A stretch of 44,231 nucleotides of DNA, taken from positions 1-44,231 of the IMG/VR virus record IMGVR_UViG_3300031692_000006; one strand, given 5' to 3'. A program made the translations under genes and the position numbers. This DNA comes from a virus. Of this stretch, positions 1,872 to 17,699 are shown in pieces; position 1 is the stretch's first letter; every line of letters begins with the position of its first letter. The notes under the pieces are model-generated. The model saw only the letters and a program-made list of their open reading frames with translations, made no database searches and had not been told where the DNA came from.

Positions 1872-3062
1872 TTATCCCAATTTTTGAACGGCCCGCTTTG
1901 CATCGATCAATTTCATCCGCTGGACGGCTTGTTTTGTGTACCGCTTTGTCATGGTAACAGTGGCATGGCCCAACACATTTTTAGCGGTTTCGATACCGTA
2001 CTTCTCGCAAACTTCGGTGCCGAATGTATGGCGTAACTGGTGGGCATGAAATTCGATTTGATCTTTCGGGTGATCGATGTTGTATTGCTTAACGGCCCGG
2101 TTGATATGTTTGGCGAATGACGACGTGCTATAGTAATCCTTTGTATTGTTTCGGCGATTGTCTTTAGGGGGGAAGCAATACGCGGTTTGGCTACGCAACA
2201 GATATTTCGTTAATATCCGTTGGGCTCTTTCACCGATCACGATTTCCCGAACATGATTGAAGCGGATCGTTTTGTGTTGGGGCGGACGATATACCCAGCC
2301 ATCCGGATCACTTCGATCAATATCCCCGACTCGCATCAAACGAATTTCACCGGGGCGGGCACCTGTGTATCGAGCAATCGAAAGCATGTCGGCAATCATT
2401 TCGTCTAAATACGGAAACAGCTTTTGAACCGTTAACCAGTCGGCTGGTTCAACTTCGGCGTGATCAACACTGTTTTCTTCACCCCGCTTTAAAGGCAGAA
2501 TAGCGGCAAGCTGATAATATAATTCAGCCGATTCTATTTCATAATTCGCCGCATAACGGATCATCTGTTTAATGACGTTCACCTTCTTATTGATGGTATT
2601 TCGGCAAACGCCCTTTTCAAAATTCAAATAGTTTCGCCATAATAAAATCCGGTTTGGTTTCAGATCGGCAGTGATCAAAGTAAAGGCGTTGGCGGTCAAG
2701 AATTCAATCAAGTCTTTAATCGCCTTTGTATACAGATATATTTCCCGTTTTTTATTTTCGGCCTGTTTACCGGCAATCTTGCGTTTGTGATCGGTAACAA
2801 ACAATTCCTTCAACTGTGTTAAGGTGCCATCGTAATCAGGCCGATTTGATTCGGATTCTGACTCCGTGTTTTGTTCGGCTTCATCCCAAATACGATTTGC
2901 CAGTGCAATTGCCAGCCGCTTTTCGGTTGTGCTTTTTGTATGGCCGGGTGATACCAGCGGCAACGTCTTTCGGGTATTGGTTCCGGGCAAGGTTACTTTA
3001 TAGTAATATCGCCCCCGTACTAAATTTAACGATCCATGATTGGGCTTATTTTTCCGGGCCAT
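1872..3062 (-). CDS. int: Tyrosine recombinase / phage integrase
   Basis: A 396-aa protein starting at 3062 after an AAGGAGAAATCTA ribosome site. It has an N-terminal arm-binding type domain (about 1-75), a SAM-like core-binding domain (about 80-195) and a C-terminal catalytic domain. The catalytic set is complete: Arg236 in GARPGEIR, Lys264 in QHKTIR, His341 and Arg344 in HQLRH, His366 in LGHATV and the nucleophile Tyr375 in TKRYTK. It would integrate the phage at a site matching the attP core at 4327-4368, which is the 3' end of a tRNA-Arg gene. It is the last gene of a leftward six-gene operon starting at 4185; the other five are small proteins. The attP lies upstream of that operon, not directly beside int. 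Confidence 0.95.
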   Translation of the reverse strand: MARKNKPNHGSLNLVRGRYYYKVTLPGTNTRKTLPLVSPGHTKSTTEKRLAIALANRIWDEAEQNTESESESNRPDYDGTLTQLKELFVTDHKRKIAGKQAENKKREIYLYTKAIKDLIEFLTANAFTLITADLKPNRILLWRNYLNFEKGVCRNTINKKVNVIKQMIRYAANYEIESAELYYQLAAILPLKRGEENSVDHAEVEPADWLTVQKLFPYLDEMIADMLSIARYTGARPGEIRLMRVGDIDRSDPDGWVYRPPQHKTIRFNHVREIVIGERAQRILTKYLLRSQTAYCFPPKDNRRNNTKDYYSTSSFAKHINRAVKQYNIDHPKDQIEFHAHQLRHTFGTEVCEKYGIETAKNVLGHATVTMTKRYTKQAVQRMKLIDAKRAVQKLG

Positions 3063-10543: not shown

Positions 10544-11967
10544 TATTTAGTCCTTTCCACACCGTCCGGGCCAACAAATCGCTGTCCGGTTTCCAGTTTC
10601 AACCAATCCTCATCTGACGTAATGCGGACAACATCTTTTTGCGTTGGTGTCGTTTGTCCTTTTGAAGCGGCCAAATACGTCGCCCTCAATTCTTTCGATT
10701 TAACATAAATTTCCTTTTTCGAAGCTTTGGGGTTTTCGGATAAATAATCCGACATTTCTTTATTATACAAATCAATATAGTGCATTTTCTTTTCAAAATC
10801 CGTTTGCGGGCTGAGTAGTTTTGTCAGATCAATAGTCATATTCCCCAAAGAATCAAACGACATAACGTTTGAATCTTTTCCGAGAATCAACCGGGTCGCT
10901 TCAATCGAATAGGATTTCATATCCTGAGCCTGATAGGCTTTGACTTCACGATTTAAGTCATCATAGATCGCCGCATATTGTTTATCATTGATCCCGTTCG
11001 GGCTGGCCAGCGATTCACGGATTTTTGCTTCGGCCTCTGTCCGCGACAATGAACCACGCCAAACATCAATCGCTAAAGTTTTCAATTGCGTTGCTTCAAT
11101 AATGTTTCCCCGTTTATCGACTGGCGATAATGCAATTTTTGCCCACGACTGATAATCTGTATCATTCAATTCATTTCGGCGTTGCATCACGTCGTCGTTT
11201 GATAACGTACCTTTTAACATTAAATCAGTTAATTGCTTGTTTGATTCTTCGGATAATTGATCACTTTTCCGCTTTGAAATACTTAATAGTTTTTGGAGAT
11301 ATTCTTTTTGTTCCGTCTTTAATTCAATTCCTTTCATTTGCGGAATGGTGGTCAACATTTTTTTGGCCAACATTTGATCGGCGCCATTATCTGAGGCAAC
11401 CAAATCGCGGGCTTGTTCAATTAATGAATCTGACAATGCTGATTTTGATAGAGATTGATATTCGGCTTGACTGATTTCCTGACTGGCAAACCGACGATCC
11501 AAAACAGTTTGGTATCCGATCAAGTCACCTTTTGCCAACAACGTTTGGCCCTCAGCTTCAAATTGATCTCGAATATTTCTTTGCAACAATCCTTTATGAC
11601 GTTCGGTTAATGATTGTTGGATCGCGGGCATTCTGGTGTTGCGATAAACTTCTAATGCAGAATTTACACGGGCATTATCATATTCAATGCCGCCAATATC
11701 TTGCTGTAATTTTTCCCAAATTTGCTTATCCGAAATTTCGTCACCCGTTAAAGAGTTTGTCGCTGAATTTACATATTCGGCGATTCGACGTTGGCCCTCT
11801 GAATATTCCAATTCGTCCTTTTGCTGTTGAAGCTTTTTCCCAATTTGAAAAATCGCTTGTCCTGTTTGGGCAATAGCCTCATAAGCGGCTGTTTGCGGGC
11901 GTGCATACGCCGCCGTCGATTGAACATTGACAGGATTATTTGCATATTGTATTTCAAATTTAGCCAT
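10543..11967 (-). CDS. Internal virion protein, long helical (gp15-like position)
   Basis: A 474-aa, almost entirely helical protein with high Gln and charged content (FQIGKKLQQQKDELEYSEGQR near residues 41-61). There is no transmembrane segment and no enzyme motif. It starts at TAATG coupled to the upstream 146-aa gene and ends at the start of the 1417-aa gene. Size, composition and order match the middle protein of the podoviral internal core/ejection apparatus. Homology was not tested. Confidence 0.65.
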   Translation of the reverse strand: MAKFEIQYANNPVNVQSTAAYARPQTAAYEAIAQTGQAIFQIGKKLQQQKDELEYSEGQRRIAEYVNSATNSLTGDEISDKQIWEKLQQDIGGIEYDNARVNSALEVYRNTRMPAIQQSLTERHKGLLQRNIRDQFEAEGQTLLAKGDLIGYQTVLDRRFASQEISQAEYQSLSKSALSDSLIEQARDLVASDNGADQMLAKKMLTTIPQMKGIELKTEQKEYLQKLLSISKRKSDQLSEESNKQLTDLMLKGTLSNDDVMQRRNELNDTDYQSWAKIALSPVDKRGNIIEATQLKTLAIDVWRGSLSRTEAEAKIRESLASPNGINDKQYAAIYDDLNREVKAYQAQDMKSYSIEATRLILGKDSNVMSFDSLGNMTIDLTKLLSPQTDFEKKMHYIDLYNKEMSDYLSENPKASKKEIYVKSKELRATYLAASKGQTTPTQKDVVRITSDEDWLKLETGQRFVGPDGVERTK

Positions 11968-12407
11968 TATAAAAATGCTCCGCCAAATCCAGTTAATAAG
12001 GTAGAACCCGCTTTTATCCGTGATGCACGTCGGGCCGTTTTCCCCTCACGTCGTATCATTTCGCCCTCTGAGCGTAGACCTGCCGCTTGCTGTGTTCCTT
12101 CATAACCAATTTCCAAATTTTGCAATTCATTTTGTTTTGCCTGTTCGCCGAGAATCGCCAACGGGGCACCGGCCGTTGTAACCGCACCCGACGCCCCCAA
12201 TCCGGCCCGAAGCCGACTCATGGTACGGGCAGACTCCTGAGCTTGTTTCCGAGACTGAATTATTGCCCTTTGTTCGGCCGCCTGTGCTTCACGTTCTTTA
12301 ACTTGCTGATTATATTTTGCGACGGCGTTAGCTTCTTCCCCGGCCTGATATTGACCGTAAGCTTGTAATCCAACACCAGCCAATAATAAACCCGTAGCTA
12401 ATCCCAT
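11967..12407 (-). CDS. Small internal virion protein (gp14-like)
   Basis: A 146-aa protein. The N-terminus is hydrophobic and glycine-rich (MGLATGLLLAGVGLQAYGQ), followed by a long Ala/Gln/Glu/Arg helix (residues 25-75) and a second Gly-rich hydrophobic end (STLLTGFGGAFL). This bipolar pattern is typical of T7 gp14-type internal core proteins, which insert in the outer membrane during DNA ejection. It has a TGGAGAATAAC ribosome site and lies directly before the two larger ejection proteins. Confidence 0.65.
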   Translation of the reverse strand: MGLATGLLLAGVGLQAYGQYQAGEEANAVAKYNQQVKEREAQAAEQRAIIQSRKQAQESARTMSRLRAGLGASGAVTTAGAPLAILGEQAKQNELQNLEIGYEGTQQAAGLRSEGEMIRREGKTARRASRIKAGSTLLTGFGGAFL

Positions 12408-12409
12408 AG

Positions 12410-12832
12410 TTATTCTCCATCAAAGTATTTAACAAACATAATCGCGTCCCTGCCTTTGCCTAAAAAATCGTGCATCATATATTCTTCCACAAAACCAGCA
12501 TGGCGAACCGTCCGTAAGCCCTCTGTAAATCCGCGTTCAACCCATGCTTGTAATCGTCGGATATGATGATCCCTGCAAAATATTTCCATATATTCCTTGA
12601 TCACTCGCAACGTCATTACAAGGTGACTTCCAACATATTCCGTTAAATCAATCCATGCCCATGCTGTCGAATCTGTAATTAACCGAAAGCCGCCAACGCC
12701 TAAAATATAATCACCATGATCAAGCGTGTAAATGAAATCAATTTGATCCGATATAACTTTCCCGCTTGACGGGTATAGACTATATTTTTCTACAAATTTT
12801 AAGTCTTCTTCGGTTGATTGTCGAAATTCCAT
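12410..12832 (-). CDS. GNAT-like acetyltransferase-fold virion-cluster protein
   Basis: A 140-aa protein starting MEFRQSTEEDLKFVEK with GGGAGAT before it. The plan is that of a short GNAT fold: an N-terminal FRQSTEEDL strand-helix, ILGVGGFRLI and AWAWIDLTEYVGS in the middle, a long helix, then LRTVRHAGFVEEYMMHDF near the end, where GNATs carry the C-terminal strand pair. The canonical acetyl-CoA loop Q/R-x-x-G-x-G/A is not obvious. T7-like phages carry a comparable GNAT-fold gene (gp13, DUF2833) at the start of the internal-core cluster. A structural role is therefore as likely as catalysis. Confidence 0.55.
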   Translation of the reverse strand: MEFRQSTEEDLKFVEKYSLYPSSGKVISDQIDFIYTLDHGDYILGVGGFRLITDSTAWAWIDLTEYVGSHLVMTLRVIKEYMEIFCRDHHIRRLQAWVERGFTEGLRTVRHAGFVEEYMMHDFLGKGRDAIMFVKYFDGE

Positions 12833-12833
12833 A

Positions 12834-15353
12834 TTATCTCCCGCTTTGTTCAAACCCTGCAACAATCGCTTTAATTGTCATTGGATACGGTTGACTACTG
12901 CTAATAATAATTGGATTTTCAATTGAAAAGCCGCCGGACATTGTAACAGGTATGTCCCCACTATACAAACCGGTGATATAATCTGCGTTTTCAAATCGTT
13001 CATCGTCAAAATTAACAGTTGTCAAATTGCTTGTACTATCACCGTATTGAACACCTTTGGTATTAAGAAAACTTATTTTCAAATCGTGAATGCGTGTCAT
13101 AGCCCCCATGGACGAACCGCTTTGACTGTTAGCTACTATTCTCATCGGTTGCAATAAGGCCGTAAAAGGCAAACCGACGATGGTTTGTGATACCGGTGTT
13201 GTGTTAATCGTAATTGCTCCGGAAGCGACTGTGAAAGTACCATCATAAACGCCGTCAACAAGAGCAACAACGGTTTCGCCTTCTAAATGATCTAATCCCG
13301 AAATCGTTGTAGACGTTCCTGTGTCAATAATAAAACTATCGGCAAAATATGAATCTTCAATTGCTTGCGGAATTCGGGTTTCCATTTTTTCAATATAGAC
13401 ATAATCTGAACCGTTAATTGTTCGTTTAACTGAAATCCATATTTCATCCTCATTGGAGCCCGGTACAACACAAACCGATTGCACGGTGCCGTCAACTGGA
13501 CAGTCAAACCATGCAACAACATTTTGCTCTCTATCATAAACCATACCAATTAATGAACCATCTGTAAGAACACACCACAAAATAGAATCAGGGTTTTTCT
13601 GGTGGGCCATACATACAATACCTGTTTCTGTGATATGTTCTGCTAACGACGACAAATCCGGTGAAACATACTTTTCCTTTTCACCGCTATAAGTCATTTC
13701 CCTAATTTTTCTGCCAACAAAATCAACATACAAAAGGACTTCATTAACAGCAATTGGCTGTATATTTTCACTGCCCCAATTTGATTGACGTTTAACCCCA
13801 AAATTCGTTGGAGAAAGGGGCGTGTCTAATTTGTTTGAAGCCAGCTTCCACTCATCCGCCGCTGTCCCGATTAAAAGAGCTTCAATTGATTCAATCCATC
13901 GGATTTCATTTGTTGAAGGAATAACCACAATAAAAGCATCGTCGTCTTTTACATCATCATCAAACCCCTCATAGTCACCAGTTTTTGAAGGCCAAACCGT
14001 CAAATTTGATTGTGATATAGCAGGTTGTATATAAGTTGGAATTATCCACGTAGCATCAAAATCAAAGCCTACATAAGTTGCTTCAAGCTTCATTTCCGCG
14101 GTCGTATAACCTGTAACACCAGATTTTGCACTGCCTTCAACTGCATCCGCCGTTCCGCTTGTTTCAGTATCCCAATAGCAGGTCGTTAATGTCCCGGAAA
14201 CATAATCACCAATAAAACCTCCGTATTTCGTTGCTGAAGTATTGACATAGCCGGTACTATAGCAATCAGTCCGATTCCCAGCACTTTGACCAACAAGACC
14301 GCCCACATAATAAGTACCCGATACATCATCATTTTTGCAGACATTCCCACGACTGTAACAACTTGTAATCGTTCCCGTATTAATACCGCAAAGCCCACCA
14401 ACATATCCAGTCGTTGCCCCCGATGCGTTAACATCTCCAATGGCCATACATTCGGTAGTTATTCCCGCTGACGATCCCGCAAAGCCGCCACATCTTGTAT
14501 TGTAAGTATCACTTGATATAATCGCCCCTGTTGCATAACAATAAGTAAATGAAGCAGTTAAATTTGAACCGATAAAGCCTCCACAATTTGAGGCTCCACT
14601 TCCAGACGTAACCGCATTATTGGCAATCGAAACAGAGCTTTTACAACTTGTAAAGTGAGAAGCCGTAGAAGAAGCAATTCCACAAAATCCTCCAATTCCT
14701 CCGTTACCGAGCCCCGTCCCGGTTGTGGTAATCGTTCCCCCAGACGAGCAATTTGTAAAATCGCTATTAGCTGATAACCCACAAAATCCACCATAGCCAC
14801 CCGAAAAAACAGGTTTCGTAATAGAAATAGTAACAGACGATGAACAGTTAGTATAGGTTGCAGACGTAGACCATCCCACCAATCCACCATCGTTGCCAGA
14901 ATTTCCAGTAGGCAACGTTAATGTTCCTGAAACATTGACCCCGGAAACAACCGCTTCATTGCCAGACGTTCCGGCAATATTCCCGGCAAACAATCCAATA
15001 ATTGATCGTGAAGAAATATCACAATCAATCATTGTAACATCTTTAAATTCTTTGTCCGGGGCACTTATAGCCCCAAATAATCCACCGTAAGATTCACCGG
15101 CAACGCCGTCACCTTGTCCGCGATTGATATATAAATTACTAAGCGTAAATCCCGCACCGTCAAAACTTCCCGTAAATGGCGATCCTCCCGTCCCTATCGG
15201 TTGAAATCCATAATATTCACCTGTATAGCCGGGTCGTGCATTCGATGTTCTCGAAGCAGAACAATCAATATCATTGGCTAATACACAATCATCCGCAAGA
15301 TGACTGCTCATTGCCTGTAGTTCGGTGTAATTTGTAATCGTATATGTTGCCAT
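12834..15353 (-). CDS. Tail protein C-terminal half with an inserted GLUG beta-helix domain
   Basis: An 839-aa protein. Residues about 50-440 are a GLUG-type repeat domain: about ten GG-[LF]-x-G turns (GGLFG at 90, GGLVG at 156, GGFCG at 188 and 221, GGFIG at 258, GGFAG at 289, GGLCG at 319) with Cys-Tyr-Ser strands between them, as in surface adhesins. From about residue 452 the sequence switches to the C-terminal half of a conserved podoviral tail protein: WPSKTGDYEGF, then EIRWIESIEALLIGT, DEWKL, LLYVDFVGRKIREMTY, DREQNVVAWF and YVYIEKM. The N-terminal half of that protein is the gene just upstream (15355-16530). The ATG follows that gene's TAA by one base with no Shine-Dalgarno, so translation may depend on re-initiation. 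Confidence 0.75.
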   Translation of the reverse strand: MATYTITNYTELQAMSSHLADDCVLANDIDCSASRTSNARPGYTGEYYGFQPIGTGGSPFTGSFDGAGFTLSNLYINRGQGDGVAGESYGGLFGAISAPDKEFKDVTMIDCDISSRSIIGLFAGNIAGTSGNEAVVSGVNVSGTLTLPTGNSGNDGGLVGWSTSATYTNCSSSVTISITKPVFSGGYGGFCGLSANSDFTNCSSGGTITTTGTGLGNGGIGGFCGIASSTASHFTSCKSSVSIANNAVTSGSGASNCGGFIGSNLTASFTYCYATGAIISSDTYNTRCGGFAGSSAGITTECMAIGDVNASGATTGYVGGLCGINTGTITSCYSRGNVCKNDDVSGTYYVGGLVGQSAGNRTDCYSTGYVNTSATKYGGFIGDYVSGTLTTCYWDTETSGTADAVEGSAKSGVTGYTTAEMKLEATYVGFDFDATWIIPTYIQPAISQSNLTVWPSKTGDYEGFDDDVKDDDAFIVVIPSTNEIRWIESIEALLIGTAADEWKLASNKLDTPLSPTNFGVKRQSNWGSENIQPIAVNEVLLYVDFVGRKIREMTYSGEKEKYVSPDLSSLAEHITETGIVCMAHQKNPDSILWCVLTDGSLIGMVYDREQNVVAWFDCPVDGTVQSVCVVPGSNEDEIWISVKRTINGSDYVYIEKMETRIPQAIEDSYFADSFIIDTGTSTTISGLDHLEGETVVALVDGVYDGTFTVASGAITINTTPVSQTIVGLPFTALLQPMRIVANSQSGSSMGAMTRIHDLKISFLNTKGVQYGDSTSNLTTVNFDDERFENADYITGLYSGDIPVTMSGGFSIENPIIISSSQPYPMTIKAIVAGFEQSGR

Positions 15354-15354
15354 A

Positions 15355-16530
15355 TTAAAACGTCAAATTTAATAAATTCGGATAATCATTAATTTGTGTT
15401 GAATCGTCGGCACTTCCCGATGAAGCCCCGGCATAAACACATCGATTTTCAAAGAAGGTAATAGCCGCCGGATAACCCCGAACAGCAGACCACGCCCCTT
15501 CATACCATTTTTGCGTTGTCGAAGTAGACGCCAATTTTGAATAGACTTCAACCGTTGCATTATAAGAATCCCCAATACCAATAATTTTGACAATGCCAGA
15601 TTCTAACGGTTCATCAATTGAAAAATCAGCATAAAGCCCCGCACTGCAATTTGTCGTGTAGAGCCGATGTTCATTTGTGTCGGCTTCTTCTTCATACGAT
15701 TTAGTCACATTTTGATATGCGTTTGAATCTGATTTGTAAGAAAATAATTCTTCCCAATCGCCATTATTTTCGCGTCGTTGCCAAACTAATGTCCCCGTCC
15801 ATGTCCCGCGAGTTAAAAGATTATATGTCCCCTTCCCATGGAATGTTGACGTATAAACAGTCCCCCCTGTCCCTGTTAACGTTTTCCTTTTGACCGTTCG
15901 AGCATGAGATAATTTAAAAAGAGCCCCCGCATGTTCTGATAGAAATATTGGGGTCGAAGCAATCAATGATCCATACTGTCCTTTTTTCGTTACGGTACAT
16001 GATAAAGTTGTCAAATTCGTTGCTTCGGGATCAAGCAAATCATTGCGAGTAAGAAACGGCCCATTGCGAAAATCAATTTTTTCTAATACAAACGTGTAGG
16101 CGTCCGTTCGTTTCAATTTACGGGGTGCATAATTAGGATGAACCAGCCACAATACATCACCGATTTGTTTGTATTGAATTCGAAATAAATCGGCTGTTAC
16201 ATAAGGTGTGTCAATAACAACTTCATTACTGCTTTCATCCAGTAAAACAGAATTTCCGTAATATATCCTAAAATACAAATTTCCCATTTCAATCTTGTAA
16301 ACAACCGATGCACTATAAACAAAAGGGATCATCCGAACTGTTGTTGCGGCACCGTAAGACGAGTCAATATATTTAAGCCCCGGCCTCTTTTCGGCTCCGC
16401 CATATTTCGTAGGGATCATGTTTTCCAAACGACGACACCCGGCCCGGTATTTTTCAATATCAATGCGGGTATCTACTTTAGGTGATAATTCACCGGCATT
16501 AAAGCTTAAAATTGATTCGTTTATACTCAT
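15355..16530 (-). CDS. Tail protein N-terminal half (split gene)
   Basis: A 391-aa protein starting MSINESILSFNAGELSPKVD. The order FNAGELSP, KYRAGCRRLENMIPTKYGG, EKRPGLKYI, TVRMIPFVYS, LVHPNYAPRKLKR, AITFFENRCVYAGA is the usual N-terminal half of a long podoviral tail / stabilisation protein. In its relatives this continues directly into W-S-x-x-G-D-Y-E-N-F and D-A-I. Here it ends shortly after VYAGA, with QINDYPNLLNLTF and a TAA. The continuation is found behind a GLUG domain in the next gene. The start overlaps the upstream stop (ATGA). Confidence 0.75.
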   Translation of the reverse strand: MSINESILSFNAGELSPKVDTRIDIEKYRAGCRRLENMIPTKYGGAEKRPGLKYIDSSYGAATTVRMIPFVYSASVVYKIEMGNLYFRIYYGNSVLLDESSNEVVIDTPYVTADLFRIQYKQIGDVLWLVHPNYAPRKLKRTDAYTFVLEKIDFRNGPFLTRNDLLDPEATNLTTLSCTVTKKGQYGSLIASTPIFLSEHAGALFKLSHARTVKRKTLTGTGGTVYTSTFHGKGTYNLLTRGTWTGTLVWQRRENNGDWEELFSYKSDSNAYQNVTKSYEEEADTNEHRLYTTNCSAGLYADFSIDEPLESGIVKIIGIGDSYNATVEVYSKLASTSTTQKWYEGAWSAVRGYPAAITFFENRCVYAGASSGSADDSTQINDYPNLLNLTF

Positions 16531-16886
16531 AAATTAATTATCCGCGGCTGTAAATTTATCGGCGTTTTTGCCGGAAAATCATTTTTCACTGTTTGTTGTG
16601 CTACAATCAAAGTATCTACATTCGTATCAATAATATCAACTTTGCTTTCAACTGCCGACGATGTAACGTCCGGCAAATATTCGGCTTGAAATAAAACACC
16701 ATTTGAATCGGACACGATACAAATATCCCCGGCACCAATATCGGCATTGGTAGCAGTGTAATAACCAGTGGCCCCAATTTCCGGTAAAGACGTTCCGGGT
16801 GCGGTAACTTCGGTTCCGTCCGGATTATAAACTGCATAAGTCAATGTCTGTCCGGTATAATAACCTAATTTGATTTCGTTGGCCAT
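16527..16886 (-). CDS. Small virion-cluster protein
   Basis: A 119-aa protein. The N-terminal 80 residues are a beta-type domain (LGYYTGQTLTYAVYNPDG, TGYYTATNADI, GDICIVSDSNG) resembling the small fibre/adaptor modules often found beside tail tubular proteins. It then has a helical Val/Asp segment and ends in PRIINL. It starts 4 nt after the tail tubular A-like gene and overlaps the next by 4 nt. The exact role is unknown. Confidence 0.6.
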   Translation of the reverse strand: MANEIKLGYYTGQTLTYAVYNPDGTEVTAPGTSLPEIGATGYYTATNADIGAGDICIVSDSNGVLFQAEYLPDVTSSAVESKVDIIDTNVDTLIVAQQTVKNDFPAKTPINLQPRIINL

Positions 16887-16889
16887 TCA

Positions 16890-17699
16890 TTAGGCTCCGT
16901 ACCGTGCTAAATTCCAATCCATCCGGCCCGTTTGATTGTTTTCCTGAGAACTTACCGACCGGGCACGGGCTTCGGTTGCTTGTAAATCCCTCCAAATTTC
17001 GTCCCTGTCTACTTTTGCCATCGTCCCGGCCAATGGCGGAATTAATTTCCATGCCATTCTTAACAATAACAATTCGGCAAACAGCGGGTCGAAATCAGAC
17101 GGATCGGTCACGGTTTTAACAAAACGAATATTGCACGTTGTATAATTTGTTAAAATTCGATTCCCTTCCCTTGTCCATCGATCATCGCGGGCATCGGTTC
17201 CATCGTCTTCATAAACATCAATTAACCGTAAAAAATTGGTTGGTAATTCATATTGATACGTCCATTCATACGTCGGCGTTGTCACTGCAACCGTTGGATA
17301 CCCTGTTGCACAATCTAAACTATTGGTGCCGTCTGAAATAACTTCACCGTCTGTAAAATCACCCGACAAATAGGCAATAACATAAACTGTATCCGAAGTG
17401 ACCGACAAAACGGTTGCTGTGGTTCCGCTGGTTCCTCCCGTTAATGTTGCTCCAACAGAAAATGAAGCGGGTGCGGGTGAATCATCCAAGGTAAGCGTTT
17501 GAACTTGAACTAACGTTGCTCGATCTGTTAAAAAAGGCCATTCGTAAGATCGTATCAAGGCGTTTAATGTTGGTATCCAATGACGAAATGACACCTTTGC
17601 CTCTTGACTTGTTTGATCGGCCAATGTGATTTGTCCGGCTGAAATGCGATCCAGAATTTGATTAATATAGGTGATTTCCGAAGTCGTTGTAAATGCCAT
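16890..17699 (-). CDS. Tail tubular protein A-like (head-tail adaptor, T7 gp11-like)
   Basis: A 269-aa protein with an AAAGGG ribosome site. It has an N-terminal helical segment ending in ALIRSYEWPFLTDRATL, which matches the conserved R-x-Y-x-W-P-F-L region of podoviral tail tubular A / gp4-type adaptors. The C-terminal part has YELPTNFLRLIDVY and FAELLLLRMAWKLIPPL, then an Arg/Glu helix, as in that family. Between them, at about 75-140, lies a Thr/Ser/Gly-rich beta insertion (TLTGGTSGTTATVLS) that I take to be an added immunoglobulin-like or decoration module. It would form the ring below the portal. Confidence 0.7.
   Translation of the reverse strand: MAFTTTSEITYINQILDRISAGQITLADQTSQEAKVSFRHWIPTLNALIRSYEWPFLTDRATLVQVQTLTLDDSPAPASFSVGATLTGGTSGTTATVLSVTSDTVYVIAYLSGDFTDGEVISDGTNSLDCATGYPTVAVTTPTYEWTYQYELPTNFLRLIDVYEDDGTDARDDRWTREGNRILTNYTTCNIRFVKTVTDPSDFDPLFAELLLLRMAWKLIPPLAGTMAKVDRDEIWRDLQATEARARSVSSQENNQTGRMDWNLARYGA

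Follow-up and report, generated by a model that had tools for sequence, protein, structure and literature searches.

A podoviral tail nozzle gene (tail tubular protein B) is divided between two adjacent open reading frames (ORFs) in the window, which is the whole 44,231-nucleotide stretch of viral DNA analysed here (IMG/VR record IMGVR_UViG_3300031692_000006). According to their profile matches, both ORFs are complementary halves of one nozzle protein, and related genes are divided at the same few sites. It is fairly probable (about 0.7) that this is a naturally split nozzle with two polypeptides per subunit, in which surface modules can be added to the ends left at the cut sites and probably serve receptor binding.

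The first ORF (15355-16530, minus strand, 391 aa, C-terminal end ...DYPNLLNLTF) is the N fragment of the nozzle and covers positions 7-312 of the 712 of phrog_376 (E 1.8e-70). The second ORF (12834-15353, minus strand, 839 aa) covers positions 315-709 of 712 (E 2.5e-108). It combines a GLUG beta-helix module of 451 aa (14001-15353, minus strand), which begins at an ATG of its own at 15353, with the C fragment of the nozzle, which extends from TVWPSKTGDYEGF to the stop codon (12834-14000, minus strand). The preliminary description had assigned both ORFs at these positions to one divided podoviral tail protein, and the complementary phrog_376 coverage confirms it. It had also read an INDYPNL motif near the end of the first ORF as an incomplete copy of the GDYExF block. 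This had to be abandoned: in the alignment with uninterrupted relatives, the motif is the conserved xPQ directly ahead of the TVWxSxTGDYE / TVWxS strand, and YPN/YPQ corresponds to their K/F/Y-PQ.

Structural comparison gave the same identity. The nozzle profile retrieves 8ck1 'Tail Nozzle' (E 1.5e-145), and a read-through model of both ORFs, with a pLDDT of about 80-95 across most of both nozzle parts, aligns with the Carin-1 nozzle (8ck1_A) with Z 38.6 and rmsd 2.8 over 613 residues (model range 1-1199). The T7 gp12 nozzle, with its propeller, platform and fibre dock, matches the model at Z about 25; in T7 gp12, the N-terminal 45 residues supply three strands of the platform barrel (PMC6702177). 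The joined chain is thus predicted to have the nozzle fold with propeller and platform, although the fold of a joined chain does not demonstrate that separate chains would assemble. Full-length homology and the same fold are shared by the Carin-1 nozzle and the phrog_376 proteins (BPP-1 bbp13, epsilon15 gp12, phiV10, HTVC010P). However, these proteins are one continuous chain without GLUG, and any inserts that they carry keep the reading frame and lie at different sites.

The gene order is also that of a nozzle gene, since the two ORFs follow tail tubular A and precede internal virion proteins, as in Carin-1 and the phrog_376 phages. A tail tubular protein A-like (adaptor) gene (16890-17699, minus strand, phrog_394 E 2.9e-32) is followed by a gene of 119 aa (16527-16886, minus strand) whose stop overlaps the N-fragment start (ATGA). 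After the second ORF comes a gene (12410-12832, minus strand, phrog_4177 E 1.3e-10) where Pelagibacter phages have the putative acetyltransferase gene that follows tail tubular B, an order that matches L006, and then an internal virion protein gene (11967-12407, minus strand, phrog_418 E 5.6e-26). The window also contains an integrase gene. Regarding sequence conservation, the N fragment is 72% identical to that of L065 (dN 0.225 versus dS 2.0) and the C fragment is 73% identical to that of L001 over 388 residues. Synonymous sites are near saturation, yet the nozzle-part proteins are still 52-73% identical, and these values point to strong purifying selection on both halves.

Direct reading of the junction (TAA-T-ATG, 15351-15357, minus strand) shows the N-fragment stop TAA at 15357-15355, one base, and the ATG of the second ORF at 15353-15351. 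A simple 4-mer rule finds a Shine-Dalgarno-like match at 24 of the 36 listed starts and none upstream of starts 15353 and 16530, both of which are counted among the 36; the second ATG had indeed been described as following the first stop by one base without a ribosome site. The same spacing is found in L001, L015, L016, L065, L089 and others, and other spacings occur elsewhere. Translation of the second ORF would most likely proceed by termination-reinitiation at TAA-T-ATG.

In the second ORF, 451 residues precede TVWPSKTGDYEGF, close to the approximately 440 GLUG residues estimated in the preliminary description. This ORF matches Pfam Glug with 33.3 bits (E 4.9e-08), above the cut-off of 20.5. 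The cut-off is also passed by L015 and L089; L001 remains below it at 15.7 bits and L017 has no Pfam Glug match. Alignments that included whole GLUG-bearing C proteins, or GLUG pieces of relatives, set GLUG opposite other parts, and those rows were dropped. For that reason confidence in the GLUG region of the first model is low, and the module was modelled again alone (AF2 pLDDT 79.7, pTM 0.84), giving repeated short strands whose best PDB match is the IgA1-protease-like 3n6z (E 7.5e-07). A beta-helix fold is therefore predicted, in agreement with the adhesin-like character first proposed for this part. The sequence motif and predicted fold are shared with the N-terminal beta-helix of GLUG/IgA1-protease proteins (3n6z, 6xja), but these are bacterial proteins, and no protease domain was found in the window module. 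GLUG is the fastest-evolving part in the comparison with L001 (40% identity, versus 56% for N and 73% for C), although with L015 the difference is small (GLUG 42% versus C 52%). A receptor-binding role is plausible from the fold and from the lectin-like modules at equivalent ends of related genes.

Relatives were collected as 124 non-duplicate loci with a nozzle match, of which 107 had at least 370 of the 742 profile columns. Rows with at least 500 columns were used for the tree, near-copies and fragments were removed by a hand list, and L016, L065 and L066 were added, giving 89 rows, 88 of them with a readable fission label. The nozzle gene is divided into two or three ORFs in 31 of these 88 rows, mostly at two sites (site A in 12, C in 16, D in 6 and E in 1). 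Four of the 31 are weak (L091, L109, L140 and L141). The tree requires at least nine fission changes, as estimated from a quick LG+G4 search in which several inner branches are unsettled. The window is split at site C, the turn between '...VYAGA..YPN' and 'TVWPSKTGDY'. The split with GLUG is also present in six other contigs (L001, L015, L016, L065, L089 and L017), L016 and L065 being truncated by contig ends. One branch (SH-aLRT 98) unites the window with L065, L016, L066, L001, L015 and L089; L066 ends before the junction, and GLUG is found in all six readable rows of this branch, plus L017. Uninterrupted relatives also exist (L042, BPP-1, epsilon15 and Pelagibacter phages), so the protein is not always two proteins among its relatives. 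On these sequences, the nozzle gene of the clade has been split repeatedly at a few fixed sites, and the splits are conserved. The sampling is biased, as the largest scan was seeded with the window clade and the best 80 of 250 were kept, and the split clade consists of metagenomic contigs only, with no cultured member. A first genome scan found no relative, and a second found one MAG contig (Holophaga) with an intact nozzle.

In divided genes, GLUG, lectin-like or unknown modules may be attached to either of the new ends, whole genes may occupy the space between the fragments, or nothing may have been added, as read unblinded from Pfam, alignments and by eye. Laminin_G_3 is matched in L071 (1.2e-10), with weaker Pfam matches to Lectin_like (L129), Carb_bind (L119) and M26_N (L044, L087), and pectate-lyase-like tailspike genes lie between the nozzle fragments in L048 and L134. 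Many modules have no Pfam match, including the ORFs of L017, L085 and L114 and the third ORF of L129, so the receptor-binding reading draws on few modules.

The preliminary description held that a GLUG insertion had split the tail protein. The division into two ORFs, with GLUG leading the second, stands, but the causation is doubtful. A GLUG adhesin gene that brought its own start codon could have been inserted into an intact nozzle gene and run in frame into the second half, causing the split, and the position of the insert exactly between conserved blocks would fit this, as would the presence of GLUG throughout the readable window branch. Furthermore, a 10-base direct repeat, AAATTTGACG, flanks the insert in the window, with its upstream copy at 15361-15370 and its downstream copy at the GLUG/nozzle border at 13998-14007 (both minus strand). 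A shared 10-mer occurs in 408 of 200,000 random 40-nt pairs from the window (0.2%), so chance is an unlikely source. Nevertheless, L001 shares the split but lacks the repeat, which thus probably does not come from a shared ancestor and may be recent or due to chance; its interpretation as a target-site duplication was discarded. Moreover, 4 of the 16 site-C splits (L039, L102, L119 and L068) start near TVW with no module in front, none of the 57 undivided rows has an in-frame insert of at least 25 residues at sites A or C, and GLUG-type modules appear at other sites too (L044 and L087 at A, and L054 in frame at E). Insertion as the cause of the split is therefore rather unlikely. Fission could instead be the scar of homing endonucleases or introns, with modules secondary, as in Aeh1 nrdA and Aeromonas phage gene 43 (43A/43B). 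In these cases one ancestral protein is made as two polypeptides, which reassemble (PMC2988022). However, they are enzymes tied to endonucleases or untranslated inserts, whereas the protein of the window clade belongs to a structural ring, has been divided more than once and at several sites, and has gained surface modules. Only one base separates the ORFs in the window, so the split holds no endonuclease gene. Nine sources (147,099 bases) gave no Rfam match at gathering scores, nor did Pfam find a homing endonuclease in nine ORFs inside the splits of relatives, which are one tailspike and small unknown genes. This origin has a small chance of being correct. Endonucleases may since have been lost. 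One ORF of L017 (3712-4134, minus strand) appeared HNH-like by eye, but Pfam gave only a weak Stc1 match (E 0.0099).

A programmed +1 frameshift would join both ORFs in a single fusion of about 1,230 residues, and the last sense codon and stop of the window read TTT-TAA-T, which would allow the P-site tRNA to pair again after slipping by +1. This sequence is not kept among the relatives, which have TTA-TAG-G (L001), TTA-TAA-T (L015), TTC-TAA-T (L016, L065) and ATT-TAA-G (L089). L017 and L119 overlap as TAATG, the second ORF of L039 and L054 is in the same frame behind a stop, site-C gaps range from -1 to 82 nt, and purine-rich Shine-Dalgarno-like stretches were seen by eye at a junction in L054, L085, L087 and L093. 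With the second start in all three frames among relatives, frameshifting is very unlikely and was rejected as a conserved mechanism. Stop-codon reassignment is not favoured either because the second fragment is mostly in another frame. It is extremely improbable that the gene is dead or that the split reflects an error in sequencing or assembly. Among the rows, L141 alone resembles a frameshift error, and the recurrence of the split with GLUG in six other contigs argues against an error in the window. The same split is shared by diverged contigs and by near-identical contigs from different metagenomes. L114 has its split in common with L117, and L045 with L059, so that each of these splits is seen in two contigs, and the strong purifying selection on both halves does not fit a dead gene.

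In the preferred reading of a naturally split nozzle, the two polypeptides would together form one subunit of the tail nozzle, which would be a hexameric ring in the virion. The second polypeptide would start with a GLUG beta-helix standing off the nozzle and probably touching the host surface. The free ends and the gaps between fragments could accommodate modules of the adhesin, lectin or tailspike type that cannot or do not sit there in frame, and fission would ease module exchange. Tailspike and tail-fibre receptor-binding proteins also have beta-helical surface modules, like that predicted in the window, but they normally have genes of their own and are attached through an N-terminal adapter, whereas this module belongs to the nozzle itself. 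T7 gp12 differs too, as one chain with receptor binding by separate gp17 fibres.

The nozzle retains the DNA and opens on host contact. A two- or three-chain nozzle with its own adhesin would, if the preferred reading is true, tie receptor contact directly to the DNA gate. The recurrent fission of one structural protein at the same few sites shows a route by which phages could gain host-contact modules beyond fibre-gene exchange, and it amounts to a natural test of the positions at which a ring protein tolerates cuts and decoration. Annotation pipelines will break such nozzles up into two or three short tail genes. Open PubMed Central text yielded no paper that deals, by title or abstract start, with a divided nozzle or with GLUG in phage tails; as most subscription papers lie outside it, this is weak evidence of novelty.

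A further, more tentative possibility is that the nozzle is an obligate multi-chain ring serving as a plug-in board for receptor modules, where fission at fixed loops replaces in-frame insertion and decorated and bare segments may mix in the six places of the ring. In that case each cut would offer a pair of free ends together with room for entire genes, and modules could be swapped without keeping the upstream frame. The N-terminal 60-residue segment occurs twice, bare and with added sequence, in L044, L071, L083, L087 and L134, and it is for these that the mixture of decorated and bare segments is proposed.

The nozzle of this 44,231-base IMG/VR virus record is encoded by two minus-strand ORFs. 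The first (15355-16530, 391 aa) ends in TAA, and the second (12834-15353, 839 aa) starts with an ATG 1 base past that stop. Both belong to phrog_376 'tail protein' in PHROGs, the first matching profile positions 7-312 and the second 315-709 of 712. The leading 451 residues of the second ORF contain the Pfam Glug motif (E 4.9e-08), and the tail protein sequence is picked up again at TVWPSKTGDYEGF, after this GLUG part. Tail tubular A (phrog_394) comes first, followed by a small gene, then the nozzle, a gene in the putative-acetyltransferase position and an internal virion protein; Pelagibacter phages have this order too, and these neighbours are typical of the phrog_376 family. Since it carries an integrase gene (1872-3062; phrog_1, E 9.5e-40), the window probably represents a temperate phage.

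Relatives were collected by scans of viral contigs (the largest keeping the best 80 of 250) and the cuts were mapped on a 742-position nozzle profile. Many nozzle genes are divided, at few places only: site A (profile 62-66, past the N-terminal 60 residues), site C (357-372, the window's own), site E (about 528) and site D (about 570-608). According to PMC6702177, the N-terminal strands of the T7 protein form part of the platform barrel, and by analogy site A would be the border after these strands. A tree was built from 89 rows, of which 88 have a readable label; 31 of the labelled rows are split (A 12, C 16, D 6, E 1), and at least nine changes of split state are required. One 24-row branch (SH-aLRT 93) holds 21 split rows, two intact ones (L041, L098) and one ended by the contig edge. 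Three-piece nozzles occur in L017, L039, L085, L119 and L129. Four of the 31 split rows are weak (L091, L109, L140, L141), and the L141 split is probably a frameshift error.

For the window, the preliminary description had considered that a sequencing error might explain the two frames. However, the split recurs in the viral contig L001 (54% identical to the window in the first half; junction TAG-G-ATG), in L015, L016, L065 and L089, also with 1 base from stop to ATG, and in L017, where both overlap as TAATG; the L016 and L065 contigs stop within the GLUG part. Nozzle parts are 52-73% identical between relatives in protein, with synonymous sites near saturation. This recurrence in diverged relatives that keep the protein rules out a sequencing error, and from these comparisons the split is judged to be old and under selection. 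The 16 site-C rows make a conserved programmed frameshift unlikely and speak for separate starts of the two fragments: the distance between stop and start varies between -1 and 82 nt, and each of the three frames is used for the second start. A Shine-Dalgarno-like 4-mer, found at 24 of the 36 starts listed, precedes neither nozzle ORF of the window, in agreement with the earlier remark that the second ATG has no ribosome site. Translation of the second ORF is likely coupled to the upstream stop.

The cut was placed by aligning the window with BPP-1, epsilon15, phiV10, Pelagibacter phages and others. Undivided proteins read '...RLVFAA..xxPQ-TVWxSxTGDYExF' in this region and the first ORF of the window ends in '...RCVYAGASSGSADDSTQINDYPNLLNLTF*', so in this alignment its YPN is the xPQ element. 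The INDYPNL previously taken for a partial duplicate of the GDYExF block is thus not one. A 10-base direct repeat, AAATTTGACG, flanks the GLUG module (15370-15361 and 14007-13998) and codes for NLT on each side; 408 of 200,000 random 40-nt pairs have a 10-mer in common, and the repeat is absent from L001. Exact recombination between the two copies would delete the module in frame.

The contents of the sites were assessed with Pfam, alignments and reading by eye. At site C, GLUG precedes the second fragment in the window, L001, L015, L016, L065, L089 and L017, other sequence without Pfam match does so in L085, L114 and L129, the second fragment is bare or almost bare in L039, L102 and L119, and in L068 the first fragment bears a long extension at its end. 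Site A carries M26_N, a GLUG-type match, in L044 and L087, a Laminin_G_3 domain in L071 (1.2e-10), and weak matches to Lectin_like (L129) and Carb_bind (L119). Some nozzle fragments are separated by whole genes: pectate-lyase-like tailspike genes in L048 (7492-8673) and L134 (8289-9863), ones coding for about 130 aa in L044, L071, L119 and L124, and small genes in L045, L103 and L131. In L054 (6908-9484) the same module type occupies another site, with GLUG in frame at E and the nozzle split at C. Two tandem copies of the N-terminal 60-residue segment are encoded in L044 (4212-4529 and 4918-6099), L071 (7810-7995 and 7995-9065), L083 (7800-7991 and 7995-8735), L087 (7808-8002 and 7980-9167) and L134 (7801-7995 and 7992-8213), with the second copy clearly extended in the first four; mixed rings are possible.

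The insertion of a module could have caused the split, or the split could have come first. Against the former, bare split forms exist, and intact genes have in-frame inserts of at least 25 residues at about 105, 170-300, 318-331, 527-533 and 570-616, but none at A or C (0 of 57 intact rows). For these reasons, a split that preceded the modules is favoured. L067 (7783-11811) has an intact nozzle gene of 1,342 residues with a 582-residue in-frame insert at E, without Pfam match.

Neither the nozzle family nor GLUG helices nor two-chain phage enzymes are new; the pieces of Aeh1 NrdA and gene 43A/B reassemble, as stated in PMC2988022. Searches of open full text turned up no paper on a tail nozzle in pieces, nor on a phage ring protein that has been cut repeatedly at the same sites and bears surface modules at the cut ends. 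In the most likely reading, the N and C pieces would join into one nozzle subunit, six subunits would build the ring beneath the adaptor, and the GLUG arm would stick out and contact the host surface, much like the fibres of T7. A receptor-binding role for the arm fits with the differently built surface modules on equivalent ends, with the tailspike genes in the same gaps and with the faster divergence of GLUG, clear against L001 (40%, versus 56 and 73% for the nozzle parts) and small against L015. In 20 window protein scans, nothing points clearly to a tail fibre or tailspike family, and one weak tail-fibre match (E 0.0077) lies within the tail tubular A-like protein. In L042, an intact relative, a tailspike follows immediately behind the nozzle. 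The nozzle arm of the window might replace a separate tailspike.

A PDB profile search with the nozzle parts returned 8ck1_A 'Tail Nozzle' (E 1.5e-145) and 9efk_M (E 2.2e-64). The joined read-through chain of both ORFs, folded in an alignment with 26 other rows, reached a mean pLDDT of 65.0; values were about 80-95 across most of the two nozzle parts and low in the GLUG part. This model matched 8ck1_A, from the Carin 1 tail (Z 38.6, rmsd 2.8, 613 residues), and T7 gp12 (Z about 25), the model range covering both pieces in each case. Such models represent folds the pieces would be able to make, as a joined chain and not as an assembly of separate chains. Folded alone with five relatives, the GLUG part (pLDDT 79.7, pTM 0.84) resembled IgA1-protease-like 3n6z (E 7.5e-07) and IgA1 protease 6xja (8.9e-04). 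Among its best fold matches in the viral library are proteins of brown-algal viruses and giant viruses (EsV-1-160, FirrV-1-A51), so helices of the GLUG type may occur across unrelated viruses.
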